NCBI GenBank assembly: GCA_016937115.1 | Contig: JAFGWN010000044.1 | Span: 1 to 33,931 of the forward strand | Length of the DNA: 33,931 bases | Direction: 5' to 3' | DNA from: Balneolaceae bacterium | GTDB taxonomy: Bacteria > Bacteroidota > Rhodothermia > Balneolales > Balneolaceae | In this document: positions 10,814 to 33,931 of the stretch, piece after piece | Numbering within the stretch: position 1 is the first letter of the stretch | Layout of the letters: each line of letters starts with the position of its first letter | Notes under the pieces: generated by a model | Told to the model about the DNA's origin: nothing | What the model saw: only the letters and a program-made list of their open reading frames with translations | Database searches by the model: none | Program-made: the position numbers and the translations under genes

Positions 10814-13384
10814 TCACTGTTTTATCGGGAAATCTACTTCACAGGAAACAGTTTCAGTTTTGCCTTTGCCATTCAAGTCAATCGGTTCAAACCGGAGCTG
10901 CGCCTTCATTGCTTTTTCATATGCTTCTTCAATACCTAAGTTTGTGGGGTTCGAAATAAGCTCAAACGAATTGACTGTGCCATCCGTATTTATTTCCAGC
11001 CGGTACGTCAGGCTCCCCGATAGGCTTAACCCTTTCAATCGCTCGGGAAGTTTGATAGCCTGCAGGAAAGTTGGCATATCGGGTGTTACTTTCGGTGTTA
11101 TGTTTAATTCTTTACATGTAAGAAGCCCGTTTGTACCAGTTTGATTGATAACCTGCGACCATTGATCCACTGTTTGAATTTGTGGCGCAGCCGGAAACAC
11201 TTCTTTAAATTCATCCAGTAATGCCCGGACCTGATTCCATTCTGTTCTGCTGTATCTCAATGTATCAATGTTTAAAGAATCTGGAATGCCTTGGTAATTT
11301 GATGTATCTGCCACACTCGAATCAGCGGCTTTAGCAACCCGGATATATTCCCGAATAGCCTGATAATAAATAGACGGCGCTAATGGTGAATCCCTGTTTT
11401 CCAAGGCCAGGTTTCGAAGGTGCTCAGCACGCTCCGCATTTGGCGGGGTGTGTTCCTGCCGGGAAAGCAGCTTCTGGACTTTATCCCGCAATTTTTCAGT
11501 AGTATCGGCTGTATTTTCCAGCGCATCGCTATTCAGCTGTCCCCCTTCTATACGCCTGGCATAAACCGACCCGGCGTATTTATCAAGAATACGCTGTCGA
11601 TATTTTGCAGCGCTGTCGGGTTTTTCCCGGAGTTCGTAAAGTTTGAACATCGAGTATAATGTCTGCGGTTCTAACGATGAGTCTGTGGTGTCATCCAGCA
11701 CCTTCCGGAAATAATACTGTGCGCTGTCGGGCTGATTAAGCGTCAGGAAAAATAAATTTCCCAGGCGATATTGCAGGTTCAGGCGTTCCTTTCTTTTCTC
11801 TTTTTTCTGCTGCAATGTTTGGGGAATCTCACGTAAGTCAATGCCCAGCTGGCGGTCTGTGAGGCCGTTTTGCGGTGTTTCTGATCCCTCCGGTACCGTT
11901 GATTGGGTTTCATCACTGGTACTCAATATGGCATTCGTGCGCCGCCAGTTATCTACCAGCGGGCGATTCCCCCAGCGGGCTCTGAACTGCTGCCGGGCAG
12001 CCTCCACCATCCGGGCGTTGCGATAGTTTAGAAAACCAAACCTTGACGATTCAGGTTCACCCCCAACCGGATCGGATGAAGTATCCTGCACAACATTCGT
12101 CAATATATTCTCCTCTTGCTGGTCATCGCTCTGCTTATCTCTTAGCAAGGCCCTTTTTTGTCGGCGTACAGCGACCAATGCTGAATCGAGCTCTTGCGGG
12201 TTTAATTGTCCCAGTGCAATTAAACTATCAACCTTCGCAATTCTGTTTTTCAGCGAAATATAATCTCCGTAAGCAGTAGCCAGTTGTGTAGCGCTTTGGT
12301 CTGAAGCATTCTGTATCTGACGAGATAATGAGGAAGATGAATCATAATAAGCCGCGGCAAGGCGATAATCGTTGTACTCCCGGCTATAAAGCTGACCCAG
12401 TTGATAGTAAGTGTCGGCTAAAAGAGATAACTGTTCACTCCGCGGACTGCTTAAAATGTTTTTATAAATCATTTCGGCCTTTCGGACTTCGCCTTCCTGT
12501 TCATAGGTTTGGGCCAGCTCAAAAGACAAAGCATTTTGGTGATCAAAATTCTTGTCGTCACTCAGCATTGAACGGTATATCGATATAGCAAGATCAAAAT
12601 TTCCATTCAGGCGGGAAACCTCTGCCCTCTTTATATTTGCCCAGTAAATGTACTCATAGTCCGGAAAATTCGGCTCTACATTGCTATACGCCTGGTAAGC
12701 ACGGGTTAAATCACCCTGAAACTGCAAGACCTGTCCCAGCAAAAAATAACTTCTGCCCTTTAACGCACGGTCTTCAACGCGGAGAATAGCCGGCTCAAGT
12801 ATGCTTGCTGATTGCTGCCAGTTTTCAAGCATAGCGTGATGCTGAGCAAGCATAACCTTAACCTCCGATTCCAAATCGGGGCTCCAGCTATGGGCTGAAT
12901 CGGCCAGCTGGGTCTCAAGAAAGCTGATGCCTTCGCCGTACGACGCAATATCAAGAAGTGCCCGGCCTTTCCATAGGATGGCTTCCTGTCGTAAGCGGTT
13001 TGGTGTGGATGCTTCGACCAACTCTTCGAACGACTGAATTGCCAGAAAAAACTCTTGCCGATAGTAATAAGATTTACCGATCAACAGGAGCGCGTCATCC
13101 GTCCACTTTGAGTCGGAATGCCGCCGGAGAATCAACGCCCCTTTGTTGATGGCTTCTTCAAAATCATCACTCCCGGCATTAACCGGTGCCGGGTGCGGAC
13201 GAATGGGTACATCAGGATTAAGTTGAACCGGCTGCTGCTTTACCTTTTTAAGTCCTGACCTGTAATCATTCTTGGCATTATAAAACGTATTGTAGTAAGC
13301 GGTAAAATTATTCCAGGAACTGGAAAGCCCGCCCCCGCACCCGGCCAAAAATAGAACGATAATTGTGATAAAGATCTTTTTCAC
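10814..13384 (-). CDS. Large tetratricopeptide-repeat lipoprotein (856 aa); resembles PorW/SprE-type TPR lipoproteins and has a C-terminal TonB-C-like domain
   Basis: Lipobox in MKKIFITIIVLFLAGCGGG; NFTAYYNTFYNAKNDYRSG N-terminus; many TPR-like helical repeats; C-terminus SLTYRLEINTDGTVNSFELISNP...EEAYEKAMKAQLRFEPIDLNGKGKTETVSCEVDFPIKQ. The family assignment is by eye. Confidence 0.75.
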   Translation of the reverse strand: MKKIFITIIVLFLAGCGGGLSSSWNNFTAYYNTFYNAKNDYRSGLKKVKQQPVQLNPDVPIRPHPAPVNAGSDDFEEAINKGALILRRHSDSKWTDDALLLIGKSYYYRQEFFLAIQSFEELVEASTPNRLRQEAILWKGRALLDIASYGEGISFLETQLADSAHSWSPDLESEVKVMLAQHHAMLENWQQSASILEPAILRVEDRALKGRSYFLLGQVLQFQGDLTRAYQAYSNVEPNFPDYEYIYWANIKRAEVSRLNGNFDLAISIYRSMLSDDKNFDHQNALSFELAQTYEQEGEVRKAEMIYKNILSSPRSEQLSLLADTYYQLGQLYSREYNDYRLAAAYYDSSSSLSRQIQNASDQSATQLATAYGDYISLKNRIAKVDSLIALGQLNPQELDSALVAVRRQKRALLRDKQSDDQQEENILTNVVQDTSSDPVGGEPESSRFGFLNYRNARMVEAARQQFRARWGNRPLVDNWRRTNAILSTSDETQSTVPEGSETPQNGLTDRQLGIDLREIPQTLQQKKEKRKERLNLQYRLGNLFFLTLNQPDSAQYYFRKVLDDTTDSSLEPQTLYSMFKLYELREKPDSAAKYRQRILDKYAGSVYARRIEGGQLNSDALENTADTTEKLRDKVQKLLSRQEHTPPNAERAEHLRNLALENRDSPLAPSIYYQAIREYIRVAKAADSSVADTSNYQGIPDSLNIDTLRYSRTEWNQVRALLDEFKEVFPAAPQIQTVDQWSQVINQTGTNGLLTCKELNITPKVTPDMPTFLQAIKLPERLKGLSLSGSLTYRLEINTDGTVNSFELISNPTNLGIEEAYEKAMKAQLRFEPIDLNGKGKTETVSCEVDFPIKQ

Positions 13385-22662: not shown

Positions 22663-22812
22663 CTTCTGTGGTTTTTTCACTGACAACACCAGATAAATAA
22701 AATGCTTTAATAGGTTATTGGCATTAAGGGGTTTCCATTTCAGGGGTTCTTGTGCCATAATTTTATTTATTTGCGTCTTCATTAAAATAATAAAAAACAA
22801 ACGAGGTTTTTT

Positions 22813-25701
22813 ATGCTTAGAAAGCTACTAACGCTGACATTTGCATTTCTGCTCTCTGCAGGGATGGCATTTGCTCAGTCATCAACAATTACAGGTACGG
22901 TCGTGGATGCCCAGTCTGGGGAACCGCTGGCCGGAGCCAACGTCTTTATTCAAGGATTATCCACTGGTGCAGCTACCAACGCCAATGGTGTTTTTGAAAT
23001 TGACGATGTGCCGTATGGTACCTACACATTCCGGACCACATTCGTGGGATATCGAACAGTAAACCGGGAAATAGAGGTAGATGCAGCCGAACAGACCGTA
23101 AATTTTGAACTGCAACCCGATCTTCAAAACCTGGATCAGGTCGTTGTTTCCGGTATTGCCGGTGAAACATCACGCGCAGTCTCACAGATTGCTGTTTCAA
23201 AAGTAAATGCCGAAGAACTGCAGGAAGCCAACACCTACTCCAGCGTAAGCGAGCTGCTTACCGGTAAAGCGGCCGGTGTAAATATTCAGCCTGCTTCCGG
23301 TAACCCGGGTGGTGGTGTTCGTTTTACCATCCGTTCAGGCGGTAGTCTTGGCGGTAACGGACAACCCGTTATTTACATTGACGGTACCCGTATTAACAAT
23401 GCCGAAGTTGAAGGTTTTGGTGTAGGCGGCCAGGGTATTGGCGTGCTTTCCGACTTAAACCCGAATGATATTGCTTCTGTAGAAATCCTTAAAGGTCCTG
23501 CTGCCGCTGCATTGTACGGTTCGCGCGGATCAAACGGGGTTGTTCTTATTGAAACCAAGAGCGGTAAAGGGATCCAGGGCGGTGATGTGAATGTTGACTT
23601 CCGTTCTTCTTATGGTCTCAATACCAAACAGGAGTCTTATGAGCAAATTAACATTCTCAGCGCCGAAGAGGCCGACAGTGTTATTGACAGCAATCCGTTT
23701 TACGACAATACCATAAGTGTAAGCGGCGGTACTCAATATGTACGCTACTACACTTCTTTGAACCAGCGATATGCTGAGGGTCTTGGACCACAAAACAAGC
23801 AGGATCGTCAGAGCTTCCGCGGTAATTTCGAAGCGTATCCGAACGATCAGTTAACGGTTCGTGCCAACACCTCATATACCATGAACGAGATACAGCGTCC
23901 GCAAAATGATAACAACATTTTTGGATGGTTGGGCAACCTGATTCTGGCTCCCGGTGGCAACACATACAGCTTTACACCAAGACCAGCTATTGAAGCTATT
24001 GAAGATAACAACGACTTCAAACGTTTTGTAGGATCGGTATCAGCTACATGGACACCCATAGAGAACCTGAACTTCAACGGTTCCATTGGGTATGACAATA
24101 GCAATCTGCGCCAAACCCAATTCTATAGCCCTAACTTTGGGTATGCCGGTATTATTAACGGTGAACGTGCAATCTATAACCGGGACAATGAGCAGATTAC
24201 CTACGATGCCAACATCTCCTACCTCTATACGCCGGTAGAAGATTTGCAGATTACCTCTATTGTTGGTACGCAGATATTCAACCGTCGTAACAATACATCG
24301 TTTATATCAAAGAATGATTTTGCCTCCAGTTCCATTAAAAATGTTGGTGCAGGAGCACTCTTTATCAGTGGCGATGAAAGTAATTTTCACGCACGTGATG
24401 CCGGCCTCTTTACCCAGCACGACTTAAACTTTGATGACACTTATTTCGTGTCGTTGGGTGGCCGTCTGGACTATGCCAGTGCTATTGGTGATGAAGCGCC
24501 GCAAATTTTCTATCCGCAGGCACGTGCCGCTGTTCGGTTAGACCAATTTGATTTCATGCCGGAAACGTTTGACCTGTTCAAGGTACGCGCTGCTTACGGC
24601 GAAACCGGAGCCCTTCCGGATCTTCTTGACGGTGTAAACCTGTTGTACGGTGCTTCTGCTTACGCGAATGGACGAGGTGCTGTTATCAGCGAAGTTGGTA
24701 ACCCGGAAATTGTACCGGAACGCGTAAAAGAGCTCGAAATCGGTCTTGATGTCGATTTCCTCAACAACTACGGTGCCCAGATCACCTATTACAACCAGAA
24801 TTCAACGGATGCTATTATCGACTTCGAACAGGCGCCTTCCACAGGGCTGACGTTCGATGATCCTCCGCTGAACGTTGGTGGTGTGCGCGGGCAAGGTGTT
24901 GAATTTGGATTTAACGGTACGCCGATCCTCACCGAAAACACCCAGTTAGACTTTAACATTACCGCTTCTTACCAAACCAACGAAGTTGAAGACCTCGGTG
25001 GCGCACAGCCTATCTTTGACGGCTTTGATGTAAACGTCATTAAAGTTGGGCTCCCCCGCTCTGCATTCTATGTAACCACGGTTGATGGCGCACTTCGCGA
25101 TGACCAGGGTAATATTGTTACTACCCCAAGTGGTGAGGCACCGGTACCCAATGTAAGTGATGAACGCCAATTCCTTGGCCAGCCCTATCCGGAATACAAC
25201 GGTTCATTCTCCATGACGTTCCGTTTCCTGAAAAACTTTGAGCTGTACCAGCTCTGGGACTGGGCAACAGGCCTTAGCGTGTATGACAACACGGAGATCT
25301 TCACGATTCTCTTTGCTAATAATTCAGAGTACAGTGCATTACAGGAGGCATTTAGCAATGCGTCTCCCGGAACGGCAGAATACCGTAGCGCAGCTGATGC
25401 GTTAGCCAACTCTAATCCAAACTATGATGGCAACTTCATTGAAGATGCCGATTATGTGAAGTTGCGTGAACTAAGTCTTTCGTACGACTTCAGTTCGGTA
25501 TTGGCTAACAGTGGCCTCGGTGATGCCATCCGGAATCTTCGGTTGAGCGTAGCCGGTCGCAACCTGCTGACGTTTACTGAATATGATGGTATTGATCCGG
25601 AAGTGAACTTTACCGGTTCCCGCAGCCTGACCCGCGGCGCCGACTTCCTGACGCTGCAAGTACCACGCACCTTCTACGGTACCATCAACATTGGATTTTA
25701 A
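22813..25701 (+). CDS. SusC/RagA family TonB-linked outer-membrane protein (962 aa)
   Basis: Signal peptide MLRKLLTLTFAFLLSAGMAFAQ; STITGTVVDAQSGEPLAGANVFI; LDQVVVSG; NGQPVIYIDGTRI...IASVEILKGPAAAALYGSRGSNGVVLIETKSG; barrel C-terminus YGTINIGF. Confidence 0.96.
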   Translation: MLRKLLTLTFAFLLSAGMAFAQSSTITGTVVDAQSGEPLAGANVFIQGLSTGAATNANGVFEIDDVPYGTYTFRTTFVGYRTVNREIEVDAAEQTVNFELQPDLQNLDQVVVSGIAGETSRAVSQIAVSKVNAEELQEANTYSSVSELLTGKAAGVNIQPASGNPGGGVRFTIRSGGSLGGNGQPVIYIDGTRINNAEVEGFGVGGQGIGVLSDLNPNDIASVEILKGPAAAALYGSRGSNGVVLIETKSGKGIQGGDVNVDFRSSYGLNTKQESYEQINILSAEEADSVIDSNPFYDNTISVSGGTQYVRYYTSLNQRYAEGLGPQNKQDRQSFRGNFEAYPNDQLTVRANTSYTMNEIQRPQNDNNIFGWLGNLILAPGGNTYSFTPRPAIEAIEDNNDFKRFVGSVSATWTPIENLNFNGSIGYDNSNLRQTQFYSPNFGYAGIINGERAIYNRDNEQITYDANISYLYTPVEDLQITSIVGTQIFNRRNNTSFISKNDFASSSIKNVGAGALFISGDESNFHARDAGLFTQHDLNFDDTYFVSLGGRLDYASAIGDEAPQIFYPQARAAVRLDQFDFMPETFDLFKVRAAYGETGALPDLLDGVNLLYGASAYANGRGAVISEVGNPEIVPERVKELEIGLDVDFLNNYGAQITYYNQNSTDAIIDFEQAPSTGLTFDDPPLNVGGVRGQGVEFGFNGTPILTENTQLDFNITASYQTNEVEDLGGAQPIFDGFDVNVIKVGLPRSAFYVTTVDGALRDDQGNIVTTPSGEAPVPNVSDERQFLGQPYPEYNGSFSMTFRFLKNFELYQLWDWATGLSVYDNTEIFTILFANNSEYSALQEAFSNASPGTAEYRSAADALANSNPNYDGNFIEDADYVKLRELSLSYDFSSVLANSGLGDAIRNLRLSVAGRNLLTFTEYDGIDPEVNFTGSRSLTRGADFLTLQVPRTFYGTINIGF

Positions 25702-25733: not shown

Positions 25734-26969
25734 ATGAGAATCTTTAAAAACTTAATTTTTACAGGATTGCTTGCCGGTGTGCTTCTCTTACCGGCTTGTG
25801 ATAACTTCGTAAATGAGGTTGATGATCCCATTGATGTGGTGAACTCTCAAGCTCTGACCACGGAGGACCAGGTCCCATTCTATATGACCGGGGTTAAAGG
25901 TCGCTACGACATCTTCCACGATAACATGACCGTGATTGCTTGCGGGCTCTCTGACGCTTGCGTGTTCCAGTCAGAATTCGTTTCGGATGCTACATTCCCG
26001 ACATTCCAGGACATCGATATCGGGGAAATTACCCTCGACAACAATAGTGTCGATGGACCATTTACTACAATAGGCCAGGCTCGCTTCTTAGCTGATGACT
26101 TCTTGTCACGGGTTGCTGAAATCGAATTCAGCGACGCTGCGCTAAAGCAGGAGGCTCTCTACACCGGGAATCTGTACGGCGGCCTTGCGCGCTATAATTA
26201 TGCCGTTTACTTCGGGCTCAATGAGAACGAAGGCGGCGGCGTCATTGATGCCGGGCCATTCATCCCATCATCAGAGATGTTTGCGCTGGCTTCAGACAAG
26301 CTGCAAGCAGCACTTAACAATGCTCCAACCGAATACGAAGCTCGCGTAGTGAATTCACTGCTCGGCCGTATTCAGCTGTACCAGGGTAATTATGATGCTG
26401 CAGAGCCCTTCCTTGAAGCAGGAATGGTAGAAGGCGATGCACCGCTACAGGCTGAATATTCGCTGGAATCCCAGAACGCGTGGGCAGCCCAGGCCGGTCG
26501 CAGCCGTAACCAGTACACTATTGATGAGCGGTTCCAGGACTACATTGATGAAAATCCACAGGAAGCCAATCGTATTCCTATCGAAGTGCTTCCGGAAAGC
26601 GAACTGCAAGATGCTGGTGTAGCTGCAGGACGGGACTTTTATCGCCAGACGAAGTATGAAGAACCATCAGATATCAATATCATGAAATGGCAGGAAAACC
26701 ACCTGATGCTGGCCGAAATTGCCGTACGTGATGGCAATCCGGCAACAGCACTTACACTTATCAACGAGGTGCGTGCCAGCCATGACATCGATCCTTTTGT
26801 AGGGGTTGTAACGATGGATGTTATTCTGGAAGAACGCGATAAAGAACTGTTTGTTACTGGAGAACGCATGATTGACCAGCGACGAACAAACACATTCCAC
26901 TTGCCTGAAGGGACATGGAGATATTTCCCCATTACCCAGAGCGAGCGAAACCAGAACGAGAACTTCTAA
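25734..26969 (+). CDS. RagB/SusD family protein, short form (411 aa)
   Basis: Lipobox GVLLLPACDNF; YNYAVYFGLNENEGGG; WQENHLMLAEIAVRDGNPATALTLINEVRASHDI; ILEERDKELFVTGERMIDQRRTN; 32 bp after SusC. Confidence 0.88.
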   Translation: MRIFKNLIFTGLLAGVLLLPACDNFVNEVDDPIDVVNSQALTTEDQVPFYMTGVKGRYDIFHDNMTVIACGLSDACVFQSEFVSDATFPTFQDIDIGEITLDNNSVDGPFTTIGQARFLADDFLSRVAEIEFSDAALKQEALYTGNLYGGLARYNYAVYFGLNENEGGGVIDAGPFIPSSEMFALASDKLQAALNNAPTEYEARVVNSLLGRIQLYQGNYDAAEPFLEAGMVEGDAPLQAEYSLESQNAWAAQAGRSRNQYTIDERFQDYIDENPQEANRIPIEVLPESELQDAGVAAGRDFYRQTKYEEPSDINIMKWQENHLMLAEIAVRDGNPATALTLINEVRASHDIDPFVGVVTMDVILEERDKELFVTGERMIDQRRTNTFHLPEGTWRYFPITQSERNQNENF

Positions 26970-27000
26970 TTCTCTTCTGAATAAGACATAGTTCTTTTAA

Positions 27001-27031
27001 GGCTGCTCCGATTATCGGGGCAGCCTTTTTT
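27001..27031 (+). terminator. Rho-independent terminator after the first plus-strand SusCD pair
   Basis: ggctgctccga-tta-tcggggcagcc followed by a T-run. Confidence 0.88.
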
Positions 27032-27135
27032 ATTTTATTAAGCTTAAAGAAGTCGTTTTTAAGATTTACCAATCAACCGAGAAAAGAAATACATAAAGAA
27101 GGGCTCTACAGGTATACAACCTTCCCGCACAAAAT

Positions 27136-27241
27136 GGACTATTCTACAATATATCGCGGAAGGCGTGACAGGATCTGCACCAGCACTTTATCGTTAAGAT
27201 AGTTTTCATTTCGCTGAATGAAGCAACCGCCCTCTCCTCAT
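27136..27241 (-). pseudogene. Remnant of the 3' end of an alanine racemase gene, paralogous to 32694..33860
   Basis: By-eye alignment to 32691..32798 gives about 14 substitutions and one 1-bp deletion over ~107 bp. The minus strand reads ...RAVASFSEM, then in the shifted frame NYLNDKVLVQILSRLPRYIVE*, versus intact MSVASFSEMTNYLNYEVLVQIPSRLPRHIVE*. Confidence 0.88.
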
Positions 27242-27635
27242 CCTTTTTCTTACTGGAATCTAACCAGATAAATTTTTGAAAGCGTTGAAGTTCCTCGAAT
27301 AATTCGGGGCTAATCTTCTTAGTTTATATAAAAACTGATTTTATTTTTTTAATCTAATAAGGCTTTATAAATGAATTAGTTTGTCTTGATAAAAAAATCA
27401 TTTGGTTTTTTTACATTATTTTATAGATTGATGAAGAATAAAAAGGTAGAAAATCTTGAGGTATTTTGATGGCTAGTCACCATCAGTAAAATTAATTGCC
27501 TTTAAGTTAACTTTAGGGTATTAGTCGGGATCAAATGTATATCACACACATCATTTCCATTCCACAGCATTGCCATATCCTATCTAAGCTGCAGGTAATT
27601 ATTCCATAACATACATAACCAAAAAGAGGTATATC

Positions 27636-30600
27636 ATGCTTAGAAAGCTACTAACACTCACAGCAGTGGTGGTATGTGCTCTTGTGATGACATCTGCGGC
27701 ATTTGCGCAGGGTACAATCACAGGTACAATCACCGATGCACAAACAGGAGAAACTATTCCCGGTGCTAACGTTTTTATCCCTGAATTGGGGCAAGGCGCT
27801 TCCACCGACGCAGAAGGACAATATACCATCAACAATGTGCCGGCCGGCACGTACAACATGCGGATCACTTTTGTTGGGTATAAAACGATCAATCGCTCTG
27901 TCGATGTTGATGCAGGCGAAGAAACCGTTCTTAATATTACCTTGGAGGCTGATGTTTTCGGTCTTGATGAAGTGGTTGTTACGGGTGTAGGCGTAGGGAC
28001 CCAGACCAAGAAACTGGGATTCACGGTTTCAAAAGTCAACGAAGAAGAATTGACGACTGTGCCGGCTTCCGATGTAGGTTCAGCCATACAAGCCAAAGTG
28101 CCCGGTATTAGCGTTGTAAAAGCATCCGGTGATCCTTCAGCAGCTGCCACTATTCGGCTGCGCGGCACAACATCGTTCGGTAATAATCAAGATCCGCTCA
28201 TTATTGTAGATGGTATTATTACAGACGGCAGCCTTTCGGATATTAATATGCAGAACGTAAAATCGATTGAGATTGTAAAAGGCGCCGCTGCCGCATCGCT
28301 TTATGGTTCGCTGGCAGGTAACGGAGTAATCCAGATTATTACTAAACGAGGAGCAGGAGCTACTGGTAAACCTCAGGTCACGCTTCGAACCGAATATGGA
28401 TTTTCAGAAATAGCAAAGGATTATCCCATAGCTACCACCCACCCCTGGGATGATGAGGGAGCTAACGCTCCTGTTCTGTCAGATGACGGGCAGGCTATCA
28501 TTGAATGGCCTGGATTTGGAACCTTTGATGCGGATCGGGTTTGGGATAACGAATACGCTGTTACCCATGATAACCTGGATGCAGTATTTGACGGGCAACC
28601 TTACAATTCAAACTTTATTAGTCTGGGAAATTCGGCGGAGTCATTCAATTATTATGCCTCCTTTGAAAACCTTACCCAAAATGGGGTTGTAAAAAACCTT
28701 CCGGATTATAACCGTAATAGCATCAAATTTAATGCCGATTATAACTACAATAAATTTGATCTGAAGTTCAGTGGTTCATATATCAATGCCCAATATCCTG
28801 ATATAACGGAACAGGGCCAGGGATCTAATTTCTTCTATTCTGTATTAACGACCCCTCCTTTTCTGAATTTCCTGGAAAAAAATCCAAATGGGACGTACAG
28901 TAACAATCCGCGCGGATATGATGTAGTAGGAAGTAACTTCCAGAACCCGCTCTATGTTGCCGAGCAGTTCAAGGATAACTTTGATCGCGACCGGTACATT
29001 ATGGGCTTTCATGCCAATTATGATCTAACTGAAAATATAAGCATTGATGCCCGTCAGTCGTTTGACAAACGGTCTACCATTCAGGAGACCTTTGCTCCGG
29101 TTGGATATCAAACTCCCACACCCAACAATCAGTTAAACAATGGGTACGAAGCCAGAGAAACCTTCGACAACTCAACCTCCGTGACCGAGTTGTGGGCTAC
29201 CGGTAGATTCGATATTGAAGACTTCAATATTCGAGTCATTGCCAAGTACCTGTATGAAGACCGGGACTATGAAAATTATGACTTCTCTGGTTTCAACTAC
29301 TCGGTATCGGGCATTCGCAGCTTCGGAGCTGTAGATCAATCCACCTATTCTATTGGATCTGAATTTATTGAAGAGCGGGCAGAGAACCTGATTCTTGATT
29401 CCCAGATCGATTATGATGATAAATTAATTCTTGGGGCCATGGTTCGGCGTGACGGCTCTTCCAGCTTTGGAGCAGATGAGCGCTATGCTATTTACTATCG
29501 TGGGTCATTAGCGTATCGTCTCACAGAAGATGTGGATCTTGGAAGTATAGATGAGCTTAAATTGCGTGCATCTCATGGTATCGCCGGCCAGCGGCCGCCG
29601 TTCGAAGCACAGTATGAGACCTATTCTGCCGGAACTACCGTATTGGTTCCCAATATTCTGGGTAACTCCGAAATCAAACCTTCGGTAGTTGCTGAAACAG
29701 AATTTGGCGTTGATGCAACATTCCTCAACAGGTTGAATACGTCCATCACCTATGCTTTAACCAATGTTACCAATGCCTACATTTTAGCACCCCTTACAGG
29801 TGTTAATGCATTTTCAGCGCAGTGGCAGAACGTGGGTGAAATTGAAAACAAAACCTTTGAGGCTTCGCTTCAGGGTAACCTGATACAGCAGGAAGATTTT
29901 CAGGCAGGTTTTAACATCTCTTTTAGTACAAACGAGCAAAAAGTTACCGACCTCGGAGGTGTTCCGGCATTTACACGTGGCCTTGGCGAGGGGGCAGCCA
30001 TCGACCTTTTCCGCTACGAAGAAGGCGTATCTATCGGGGCCATGTATGGAAATCAGCTTATCTCTTCTGTCGACCAGCTAACCGTTAATGAGGACGGGTT
30101 TGTTGTAAACGCCGGAGGCGGTACCCTTACACCGGACGACTTCAGCGTTAACGACCTTGGCCATGTTATTATAACAGATGATGCAGGTACTGAGGCCGAA
30201 CGCCCGATGTATCTGGTTGATGAGCTGGGGGATGCCCGGGTTGTACAAATCGGCGACACACAACCTGATTTCCAGGTTGGTTTTTCCGGTAATATCAACT
30301 ATAAAAACATTGGCCTTTTTATGGTGTGGGATTGGTCGCAGGGCGGCGAAGTGTACAACTACTCTAAACAGTTGCTCTACTTCAATTTCCGTCACCAAGA
30401 CCTGGAGACCCTTACCCGCGATGGATTTGACCCGCAGTATGCACTTGCCTCTGACGGGCTCTATAATGCGTCCAATGGTTCATCTTACTTTGTAGAAGAT
30501 GCTTCTTACCTGAAGCTTAGGGAATTGTCATTATCGTATACCCTTACCGGTGACAAACTTGGCTCCATAGGAAATTACCTGCGGGATATTCAATTTTCTG

Positions 30601-30749
30601 TAGTGGGCCGTAATCTGTTTACGTTTACGGATTATACGGGATACGATCCGGAAGTAGCACTACGATCAAATGCAACCAACTTCCGAATTGACGAGTATGC
30701 ATATCCCAACTTCCGAACCTACTCAGGATCGGTTCGTGTACGATTTTAA
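27636..30749 (+). CDS. SusC/RagA family TonB-linked outer-membrane protein (1037 aa)
   Basis: Signal peptide MLRKLLTLTAVVVCALVMTSAAFAQ; GTITGTITDAQTGETIPGANVFIPELGQGASTDAEGQYTI; LDEVVVTGVG; QDPLIIVDGIITDG...VKSIEIVKGAAAASLYGSLAGNGVIQIITKRG. Confidence 0.96.
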   Translation: MLRKLLTLTAVVVCALVMTSAAFAQGTITGTITDAQTGETIPGANVFIPELGQGASTDAEGQYTINNVPAGTYNMRITFVGYKTINRSVDVDAGEETVLNITLEADVFGLDEVVVTGVGVGTQTKKLGFTVSKVNEEELTTVPASDVGSAIQAKVPGISVVKASGDPSAAATIRLRGTTSFGNNQDPLIIVDGIITDGSLSDINMQNVKSIEIVKGAAAASLYGSLAGNGVIQIITKRGAGATGKPQVTLRTEYGFSEIAKDYPIATTHPWDDEGANAPVLSDDGQAIIEWPGFGTFDADRVWDNEYAVTHDNLDAVFDGQPYNSNFISLGNSAESFNYYASFENLTQNGVVKNLPDYNRNSIKFNADYNYNKFDLKFSGSYINAQYPDITEQGQGSNFFYSVLTTPPFLNFLEKNPNGTYSNNPRGYDVVGSNFQNPLYVAEQFKDNFDRDRYIMGFHANYDLTENISIDARQSFDKRSTIQETFAPVGYQTPTPNNQLNNGYEARETFDNSTSVTELWATGRFDIEDFNIRVIAKYLYEDRDYENYDFSGFNYSVSGIRSFGAVDQSTYSIGSEFIEERAENLILDSQIDYDDKLILGAMVRRDGSSSFGADERYAIYYRGSLAYRLTEDVDLGSIDELKLRASHGIAGQRPPFEAQYETYSAGTTVLVPNILGNSEIKPSVVAETEFGVDATFLNRLNTSITYALTNVTNAYILAPLTGVNAFSAQWQNVGEIENKTFEASLQGNLIQQEDFQAGFNISFSTNEQKVTDLGGVPAFTRGLGEGAAIDLFRYEEGVSIGAMYGNQLISSVDQLTVNEDGFVVNAGGGTLTPDDFSVNDLGHVIITDDAGTEAERPMYLVDELGDARVVQIGDTQPDFQVGFSGNINYKNIGLFMVWDWSQGGEVYNYSKQLLYFNFRHQDLETLTRDGFDPQYALASDGLYNASNGSSYFVEDASYLKLRELSLSYTLTGDKLGSIGNYLRDIQFSVVGRNLFTFTDYTGYDPEVALRSNATNFRIDEYAYPNFRTYSGSVRVRF

Positions 30750-30768: not shown

Positions 30769-32553
30769 ATGAAATTATCAAAAATAAAATCACCAATTTT
30801 GCTGCTTGCAATCGCTGCATTTTTTGCGGGTTGCGCAGATTTGAGCGTGCAAAATGTTAATGACCCAACCAAAGAAGCCGTTGAAGGTAACCCCGCCAAC
30901 CAGACGAAACTGCTTGCCGGTGGATTTTATGATCTTACCACCGCTATGGTTTCTCAGCACGGCGTCAATATTAATATGATCGCGGATCAAAATACCTCGA
31001 CCAATAACTTTAATGCGTATTGGGATTTCACAGAAGAACCGCGACGCCGGTTAACCAATACCACTTCGTATTCCAATACGGATGTATTCGAGGACTTCTT
31101 TGAGGGTGCAAACTCTGCTGTTGCAACAGCTAACCTCTTCATTAACAATATTGTTAACGAAGGCCAAACCGTTACCAACGATAATGGCGACGATATAACC
31201 AACGATATCCTGGCGCAGGCTTATTTCCTGCGAGGGCTTTCGTATGGTTTCCTGGGCTTGATGTATGACCAGGGATACCTGATCGATGAAAACTTCAACA
31301 CAGCAACAGATGAGCCGTCTTTTGTTCCTTATGGTCAATTGATTGATGCTTCCATCGCTGACCTGAGAGAAGCCATTTCGCTGGCTGCCGGTTCTTCCAC
31401 CTTTACATTCAATGCCATGCCGAACCCGGTTGACAGCTGGAATGCACAGGAGTTTCAGGATATAGTAAACTCATATGCGGCACGGATTATGGCAGGAAGA
31501 GCCCGAACAGCAGAAGAACGTGACGGGCTGGATTGGCAGACGATCCTGGACTTTGCCCAAAAAGGCCTTGGAGGACCTGAGTCCCTTTCCGACCTCGGGG
31601 TTTTCAGTAATCAGAATATTGGCTCGTCCGGTGAATTCGCGAACTACTTAACGGACTGGTCTAACTTTTTGGTTGCCGGTAGCCTTTTCCCCCCGGGGCA
31701 GGGCAATGGGTATAATCCCACCGACGTGAAGGCTATCCACATGCTGGATCCCAGTTATCCCGTAGAATACCCGGCCGATCAGGCATCGGGAGGCGAAGCT
31801 GGGTTAGATCCCGCATCATCAGATGACCCGCGATTGGGTTATTATATCTATACCACCAATCCGGGTTTCTTAAACCCTTCACGAAACGCAAATCTCTATA
31901 GCAACTATTTCAGCTTGCGATTTTTTGCAGATAGTGACTGGTGGCCACAGGAGAATCGAGTGATCTTCTTTACCGATACCGAAAATGATCTGCTCATAGC
32001 AGAAGCACAGCTTATGACCGGTAATACTGCCGGAGCTGCTATGACGCTGAATAACAGTACCGCAGGTACAGGGGAAACCACACTCGGTTTTGAGTTTCCA
32101 GCTGAACGGAAAGGATATATCGAAGATGCTACCCTTTCCGGCGGCCACACCATGACAGGTGCAGAAACCATGGCTCAATTTCAATGGGCCCTTTTGCGGG
32201 AATATTCTGTAGAAATCCACACCCTTGGCGGAGTTAGCAGCCCCTGGTTTTTTATGCGACGCCATGACCTGCTTCAGGAAGGTTCAGCAACGATGCTGCC
32301 CGTTCCGGCCTCGGAACTTGAAATCCTTGGTATGGAGATCTATACGTTTGGCGGGCCAAGTTTTGCCGGCCAGGCTGGTACTGCATCCGGAGCAAATAGC
32401 TGGAAAAATCTTGCTGAAAAAGCAGGTATGACCAGCTCGGCAAATCTCAATTCTGAGAAAAAATACATGGCTCCTACTTCTGTACCTGAAAATATACGGG
32501 TTACCGGTAGCCCTACGGCTGACGTAGCAGGTAAAGGAGCACGGCATAATTAG
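30769..32553 (+). CDS. RagB/SusD family nutrient-binding outer-membrane lipoprotein (594 aa)
   Basis: Lipoprotein signal LLLAIAAFFAGCADLS; AYFLRGLSYGFLGLMYDQGYL; DLLIAEAQLMTGNTAGA; LLREYSVEIHTLGGVSSPWFFMRRHDLLQEGS; directly after SusC. Confidence 0.9.
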   Translation: MKLSKIKSPILLLAIAAFFAGCADLSVQNVNDPTKEAVEGNPANQTKLLAGGFYDLTTAMVSQHGVNINMIADQNTSTNNFNAYWDFTEEPRRRLTNTTSYSNTDVFEDFFEGANSAVATANLFINNIVNEGQTVTNDNGDDITNDILAQAYFLRGLSYGFLGLMYDQGYLIDENFNTATDEPSFVPYGQLIDASIADLREAISLAAGSSTFTFNAMPNPVDSWNAQEFQDIVNSYAARIMAGRARTAEERDGLDWQTILDFAQKGLGGPESLSDLGVFSNQNIGSSGEFANYLTDWSNFLVAGSLFPPGQGNGYNPTDVKAIHMLDPSYPVEYPADQASGGEAGLDPASSDDPRLGYYIYTTNPGFLNPSRNANLYSNYFSLRFFADSDWWPQENRVIFFTDTENDLLIAEAQLMTGNTAGAAMTLNNSTAGTGETTLGFEFPAERKGYIEDATLSGGHTMTGAETMAQFQWALLREYSVEIHTLGGVSSPWFFMRRHDLLQEGSATMLPVPASELEILGMEIYTFGGPSFAGQAGTASGANSWKNLAEKAGMTSSANLNSEKKYMAPTSVPENIRVTGSPTADVAGKGARHN

Positions 32554-32584
32554 TCGTTCTATTAACGCTAATAAGCCTCGTTTA

Positions 32585-32617
32585 AGCCCTCTGTCGTTTG
32601 GCAGGGGGCTTTTTTTA
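32585..32617 (+). terminator. Rho-independent terminator after the second plus-strand SusCD pair
   Basis: agccctctgtc-gttt-ggcagggggct followed by ttttttt. Confidence 0.88.
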
Positions 32618-32693
32618 TAGGCTATACTTAACCATTCATCTGAAAATGCCCTGCAAGTAATCAGCCATCATCAAGCAGATGAAATATTTCGGA

Positions 32694-33860
32694 CTATTCC
32701 ACAATATGTCGTGGAAGGCGTGACGGGATCTGTACCAGCACTTCGTAATTAAGATAGTTTGTCATTTCACTGAATGAAGCGACCGACATCTCCTTATCGC
32801 CCTGATGTCCGATGATTACCACCTCATCCCCTTTCGACACCCCGGGAATATCGGTAACATCAACTGTTAATAAATTCATATTCACCAACCCGGCTACCGG
32901 TGCCCGCTCACCATTGACAAGCACAATACCGATATTGGTAAGATTCCGTTTAAAACCGTGGGAATAGCCGATAGGCACCGAAGCAATTTTCTCTTTTCTA
33001 CTGGTCTGATACGTGGTACCGTAACCGATAAATTCACCGGCATCCACTGTTTTCGTACTCATCACCCGGCTTTTCCAGCTCATCACACGCCGCAGCGGAT
33101 CTTCATGAAGTTTATCAAAATCGGAGTGGTTTTTAAGGAATTTCATGTACGTTTCGCGATTGGGCCAAAAACCGTACTGCGCAATCCCAATGCGCACCAT
33201 ATCCATAATTGTTTCGGGATAGTTAAGCGTTGCTGCAGAACATGCGGTATGATTCCATTTAGCCTCAATACCCTCTTCTTGCAGATACGAACAATACGAC
33301 TTAAAATTCTCAATTTGCTCGGTCACCCGCACGTGGTTGCTCACACTTTCTGCCCCCGCATAATGGGTGCAAATACCATCCACCGAAAGCAATTCATCAT
33401 TTTTCCTGATCATTTCAACCGCTTCCTTCAGCTTGCTGTTATCAAGCCCCAGCCGGTTCATGCCTGTTTCAAGATGAAGGTGAATACGCGCCGGTTTTTC
33501 TAACCTCTTCGCCTGTTCAACCGTTTTTTTGAGGCGGTCAAGCTCAAAAATATAAAATGATACATCCTGTTCAATCGCCCATTCAATTTCCTCATTCCCG
33601 ATCATTCCCATAATCATCACATGGCTGTCCGCTTTATTCTTATGCTTACAGGCAAGCCGGGCTTCATCAGCGCTGAAAACTGCAAAATGACTGATCCCAC
33701 ACTCTTCGGCCATAGGCACAAACTGCTCAATACCGTGTCCATATGCATTCCCTTTGATCACTGAACAAAACGTAACATCTTTCCCGATATAGTCTCTTAG
33801 AAATTTAACATTTTGGCGGAATGCCGATTTACTTAGCTCAATATGCGACGGGGCGAACAT
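32694..33860 (-). CDS. Second, divergent alanine racemase-family PLP enzyme (388 aa)
   Basis: IELSKSAFRQNVKFL, SVIKGNAYGHG, LETGMNRLGLD, HTACSAATLNYPE, GYGTTYQTSRKEKIASVPIGYSHGFKRNL. Confidence 0.9.
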   Translation of the reverse strand: MFAPSHIELSKSAFRQNVKFLRDYIGKDVTFCSVIKGNAYGHGIEQFVPMAEECGISHFAVFSADEARLACKHKNKADSHVMIMGMIGNEEIEWAIEQDVSFYIFELDRLKKTVEQAKRLEKPARIHLHLETGMNRLGLDNSKLKEAVEMIRKNDELLSVDGICTHYAGAESVSNHVRVTEQIENFKSYCSYLQEEGIEAKWNHTACSAATLNYPETIMDMVRIGIAQYGFWPNRETYMKFLKNHSDFDKLHEDPLRRVMSWKSRVMSTKTVDAGEFIGYGTTYQTSRKEKIASVPIGYSHGFKRNLTNIGIVLVNGERAPVAGLVNMNLLTVDVTDIPGVSKGDEVVIIGHQGDKEMSVASFSEMTNYLNYEVLVQIPSRLPRHIVE

Positions 33861-33866
33861 AGGGGT

Positions 33867-33931
33867 AGTTATCAGTTATCAGTTATCAGTTATCAGTTAT
33901 CAGTTATCAGTTATCAGTTATCAGTTATCAG
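33867..33931. repeat. Heptanucleotide tandem repeat (AGTTATC)n, n>=9, truncated by the window end
   Basis: Nine perfect 7-bp copies plus 2 bases, read directly; on the strand of the adjacent racemase gene it reads (GATAACT)n. Confidence 0.97.

Follow-up and report, generated by a model that had tools for sequence, protein, structure and literature searches.

The 107-base block at positions 27136–27242 of the window, by which we mean the whole 33,931-nucleotide stretch of DNA that was analyzed, is a decayed copy of the 3′ end of alr2, the intact alanine racemase gene at 32694–33860. On balance, we favor reading this block as a dead scar that an insertion left behind where SusCD operons turn over, next to the 3′ end of alr2. 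The remnant lies on the minus strand and consists of 34 codons, the stop codon and three further nucleotides, as defined by BLASTN and codon-level comparison, while alr2, which is on the same strand and encodes a 388-aa protein matching PF01168 (4e-50) and PF00842 (2e-39) in Pfam, is either its parent or its sister.

A pairwise BLASTN of 26970–27635 against the whole window bore out the original prediction of a racemase tail aligning to 32691–32798 at about 86% identity. The segment 27136–27242 matches 32691–32798 with 93 of 108 positions identical (86%), a single 1-base gap and an E value of 1e-30, an extent of homology that qualifies it as a pseudogene fragment of alr2, and a repeat finder recovers the same pair. 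The best ungapped 70-mer shared by the remnant and alr2 contains 61 identities, with 35 at most across 200 shuffles. The similarity breaks off sharply at both ends, three bases past the stop and at the Asp codon of GDKEM, and the DNA flanking the 108-base block is unrelated between the two copies. These copies are direct repeats in the same orientation, spaced 5555–5556 bases apart, and they bracket SusC2D2. Genome-wide (2.62 Mb, 246 contigs), the remnant has only these two matches and no third copy, and relatives match it only within racemase genes, the extra matches in L006 and L037 sitting past the gene's stop and outside the racemase tail. The block is therefore not a widespread interspersed non-coding repeat, the alternative that the original prediction had itself raised. 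No significant alr2-tail remnant was found in the relatives, none of which shows such a block.

The order of genes in the window is DHODH, a TPR protein, SusCx/SusDx, pyruvate kinase, a GWxTD protein, SusC1D1, the remnant, SusC2D2 and alr2. A decayed racemase tail stranded between two SusCD operons, as had been proposed, is supported. On one side, SusC1 (22813–25701, plus strand), a TonB-dependent SusC/RagA-type receptor, is followed by SusD1 (25734–26969, plus strand), whose closest relative is found in genome G065, and then by an intergenic stretch (26970–27135, plus strand) that carries a strong intrinsic terminator at 26999–27027 and is unlike the sequence beyond alr2. On the other side, an AT-rich leader (27327–27635, plus strand; GC 27.5%) precedes SusC2 (27636–30749, plus strand), also a SusC/RagA-type receptor, and a gene that we assign by position as SusD2 (30769–32553, plus strand), which has no Pfam match at 1e-3. 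The stretch between SusD2 and alr2 (32554–32690) contains its own terminator hairpin and is unrelated to 26970–27135. The match between the two tails ends three bases past the stop since from there on each copy adjoins an intergenic region with a terminator of its own, and the two regions are unrelated. As a separate observation, the starts of SusC1 and SusC2 (22799–22839 and 27622–27662) are 85% identical at the DNA level across the ribosome-binding region and the opening codons (MLRKLLTLT), while the two proteins are only 30% identical. SusD2 has relatives at 35–70% identity in 10 other genomes of the family.

Coding capacity has been lost from the remnant. About 90% of alr2 is absent, and the predicted 1-bp deletion just past ASFSEM is real, appearing as an alignment gap between 27205 and 27206 that breaks the frame. 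Moreover, conserved residues have been replaced: when compared with 13 orthologues, the remnant alone carries M>R, Y>D, E>K and P>L at constant or nearly constant sites, the Met site being Ile in two of the 13. The 14 substitutions that separate the remnant from alr2 fall on codon positions 1, 2 and 3 in a ratio of 5/2/7. The excess at third positions, which had been taken as a sign of earlier coding selection, is not significant (7 of 14; binomial p=0.15) and lies below that of alr2 gene pairs of similar divergence, in which ~80% of the differences are at third positions (Fisher p=0.017 for whole genes, 0.003 for the tail); that claim is thus not sustained, the counts being compatible with a neutral copy. 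In trees built on 99 sites, the remnant groups with the alr2 of the window (support 86 and 0.90), with 0.16–0.20 changes per site on the remnant branch and 0.003–0.02 on that of alr2, although third positions are saturated against the outgroups and polarity there is consequently uncertain. The codon-position counts, both Fisher tests and the long remnant branch are what unconstrained evolution would leave. The analysis of decay is limited by 104 aligned bases, and a likelihood scan over the neutral fraction of the remnant, flat to within 1.2 log units, does not date the inactivation; the simplest reading of these sequences is that the copy would have been non-functional from the start, that is, dead on arrival. 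A search for mosaic structure within alr2 was uninformative, as the nearest relative shifts along the gene without a clear break.

The minus-strand frame through the remnant is open for 59 codons, and the original prediction described an unrecognized peptide fused to the racemase tail, perhaps at a chimeric junction. The junction stands, the peptide does not. The racemase match stops at 27242, and the last residues of the peptide as originally quoted (D-E-E) still belong to the racemase (GDKEM), so that the non-racemase part corresponds to 27243–27326 on the minus strand, DNA of 33% GC that reads KISPELFEELQRF... and abuts the tail as unrelated sequence would at a recombination junction. This reading frame (KISPELFEEL) has no match in Pfam, PHROGs or NCBIfam, and the proposal that it could be identified through relatives failed, with only chance-level matches in 92 genomes of the family and 129 of the order, one plasmid match at E=9 and none in phages. 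Its codon score is -0.16 per codon, compared with 0.215 (sd 0.108) for in-frame pieces of genes. With no relatives, no family match and a non-coding score, we rejected it as a gene fragment, and it is most plausibly intergenic DNA with a frame that is open by chance.

The genome is of Balneolaceae type, its closest named relatives by alr2 being Fodinibius and Aliifodinibius, and across relatives the region that follows alr2 varies greatly and is a recurrent site of SusCD operons. Of 33 Balneolaceae loci with at least 5 kb of sequence downstream of alr2, we counted by hand 27 that have a SusC or SusD homologue within those 5 kb. By our own rough estimate, which is not a measured control, the chance expectation would be ~5–6%; whole genomes contain about 14–27 SusC matches each, the scoring having been capped near 25. 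Two Fodinibius species lack SusCD at this site, alr2 being followed immediately by a DHODH gene; in other relatives a GWxTD gene comes first, and SusCD operons are present in many. Orthologues of SusC1D1 and SusC2D2 recur at the alr2 site in several genera, in differing orders and orientations. In G065, the SusC1D1 orthologue lies directly after alr2, with the 3′ end of the racemase facing the start of SusC1 rather than the end of SusD1; in G010, SusC2D2 occupies the same zone and orientation as in the window (74% and 70% identity, with alr2 at 76%) and SusC1D1 is absent. The SusCD operons downstream of alr2 (L035, L150–L153, L173–L204) usually have the orientation of alr2, the convergent order of the window being unusual.

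How could such a scar have been produced? We suggest that a DNA segment bearing a SusCD operon and a small part of the 3′ end of alr2 was taken into the chromosome at the resident alr2, where one end would have been joined by homologous recombination within the alr2 tail and the other illegitimately; a circularized fragment integrating by single crossover could have given the same product. In that product, a SusCD operon (SusC2D2 in the simplest reading) would sit between direct copies of the alr2 tail, one completing the working alr2 and the other truncated and joined to foreign DNA at 27242/27243. The truncated copy, with neither start nor function, would then have drifted neutrally. This scheme is favored by the direct orientation of the pair, its unrelated flanks, the decay and the grouping of the remnant with the alr2 of the window, and also by the frequency of SusCD near alr2 (27 of 33 loci), the presence of SusC1D1 beside alr2 in G065 and the lack of SusCD in the two Fodinibius species. 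Against it, all relatives compared are from other genera, none being congeneric, and the locus yielded neither an integrase nor a transposon end nor a clear parental junction.

The arrangement has several known counterparts. Truncated gene duplicates and pseudogene fragments at bacterial recombination junctions are likewise short, decayed gene ends in direct orientation, with abrupt ends and a frameshift; nothing essential differs, apart from the fact that the remnant here separates two SusCD operons, and it is in this sense an ordinary gene-fragment scar at a variable site. Islands moved by site-specific recombinases integrate at the 3′ ends of genes, restoring the gene and leaving its displaced 3′ end as a direct repeat on the far side. 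The alr2 tails at 27136–27242 and 32691–32798 similarly flank an insert as direct repeats. Unlike in such islands, the repeat is 107 bp long with 14% divergence, and no integrase or other recombinase gene lies in the bracketed segment, where only SusC2 and SusD2 were found. Homology-facilitated illegitimate recombination (HFIR) and single-crossover integration of circularized DNA, both documented (PMC3240628), leave an insert that is either flanked by direct repeats or joined by homology at one end and illegitimately at the other, as would be the case here. However, HFIR inserts are usually ~1 kb (PMC3240628), and the putative insert of ~5.5 kb in the window counts against an insertion of this kind.

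The position of SusC2D2 in G010, in the same zone and orientation, speaks against SusC2D2 as the incoming operon and implies that it may be old here, with SusC1D1 as the newcomer. For this reason, the arrival of the tail attached to SusC1D1 is nearly as good an account as the insertion of SusC2D2, although we give it a distinctly smaller chance than insertion overall. A donor in which SusD1 and alr2 converged would have supplied a piece terminating in its alr2 tail, and this piece would have recombined at GWxTD on the left and been joined illegitimately upstream of the resident SusC2D2. Consistent with this, SusC2D2 in G010 is about as similar to its counterpart as alr2 is, SusC1D1 is missing there, and the closest SusC1D1 orthologue, in G065, adjoins alr2. 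The facing of the racemase 3′ end toward SusC1 in G065 is nevertheless the wrong arrangement for such a donor, and because no other alr2 is as close to the remnant as that of the window, the donor must have been very close kin. It is unlikely that a full second racemase gene, belonging to tandem SusCD-alr units, was deleted down to its last 34 codons and some intergenic DNA. The homology does begin naturally at a gene 3′ end, and many relatives have more than one racemase gene; yet no relative has two alr2 genes flanking a SusCD operon, two steps are needed, and the codon-position spectrum lends no support to a long coding phase, even if the likelihood scan permits one. A tandem duplication of a SusCD-plus-tail unit was rejected, as SusD1 is not related to SusD2 and the intergenic DNA that follows the one is likewise unrelated to that following the other.

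Two further explanations are very improbable. The persistence of the block at 86% between unrelated flanks could suggest that it has been retained for some role, for instance as a terminator, RNA or recombination site. It folds no better than shuffled sequences on either strand (z 0.89 and 1.28), however, and has no Rfam family at gathering score, and we rejected a role as a structured RNA or terminator. A strong terminator already follows SusD1, and the block is absent from all relatives examined. The fragmentation of the metagenome assembly (246 contigs, 86.6% complete) might likewise cast doubt on the junction. A false join is unlikely because nowhere are the two copies identical over a stretch long enough to confuse an assembler, and the remnant has a frameshift and substitutions of its own.

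Taken alone, the remnant is a minor scar in the genome. Its mild importance is that it points to the pyruvate kinase/GWxTD/SusCD/alr2 neighborhood, where the number, type and orientation of nutrient-uptake operons differ across the family, and scars of this kind are direct evidence of how SusCD operons are gained; the variable SusCD site beside alr2 is thus the more interesting lead. We raise as a speculative idea that the alr2 3′ end might be a preferred SusCD docking site in Balneolaceae, reused through recombination at the racemase tail, of which the remnant would be one footprint caught in place. The contig carries two intact alanine racemase genes (502–1560 and 32694–33860) that are only 25% identical to each other, and the type at 32694–33860 is present in 43 of 92 family genomes (E<=1e-120). 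Beyond alr2, the contig ends in a 7-bp tandem repeat, AGTTATC, in 9.3 copies (33867–33931). Contig C27 (L172) ends in the same repeat reversed (13147–13211), and since its genes also match those beyond alr2 in G010 (M20 at 64%, M23 at 57% and a third at 86%), the two contigs are probably neighbors, broken at the AGTTATC repeat.
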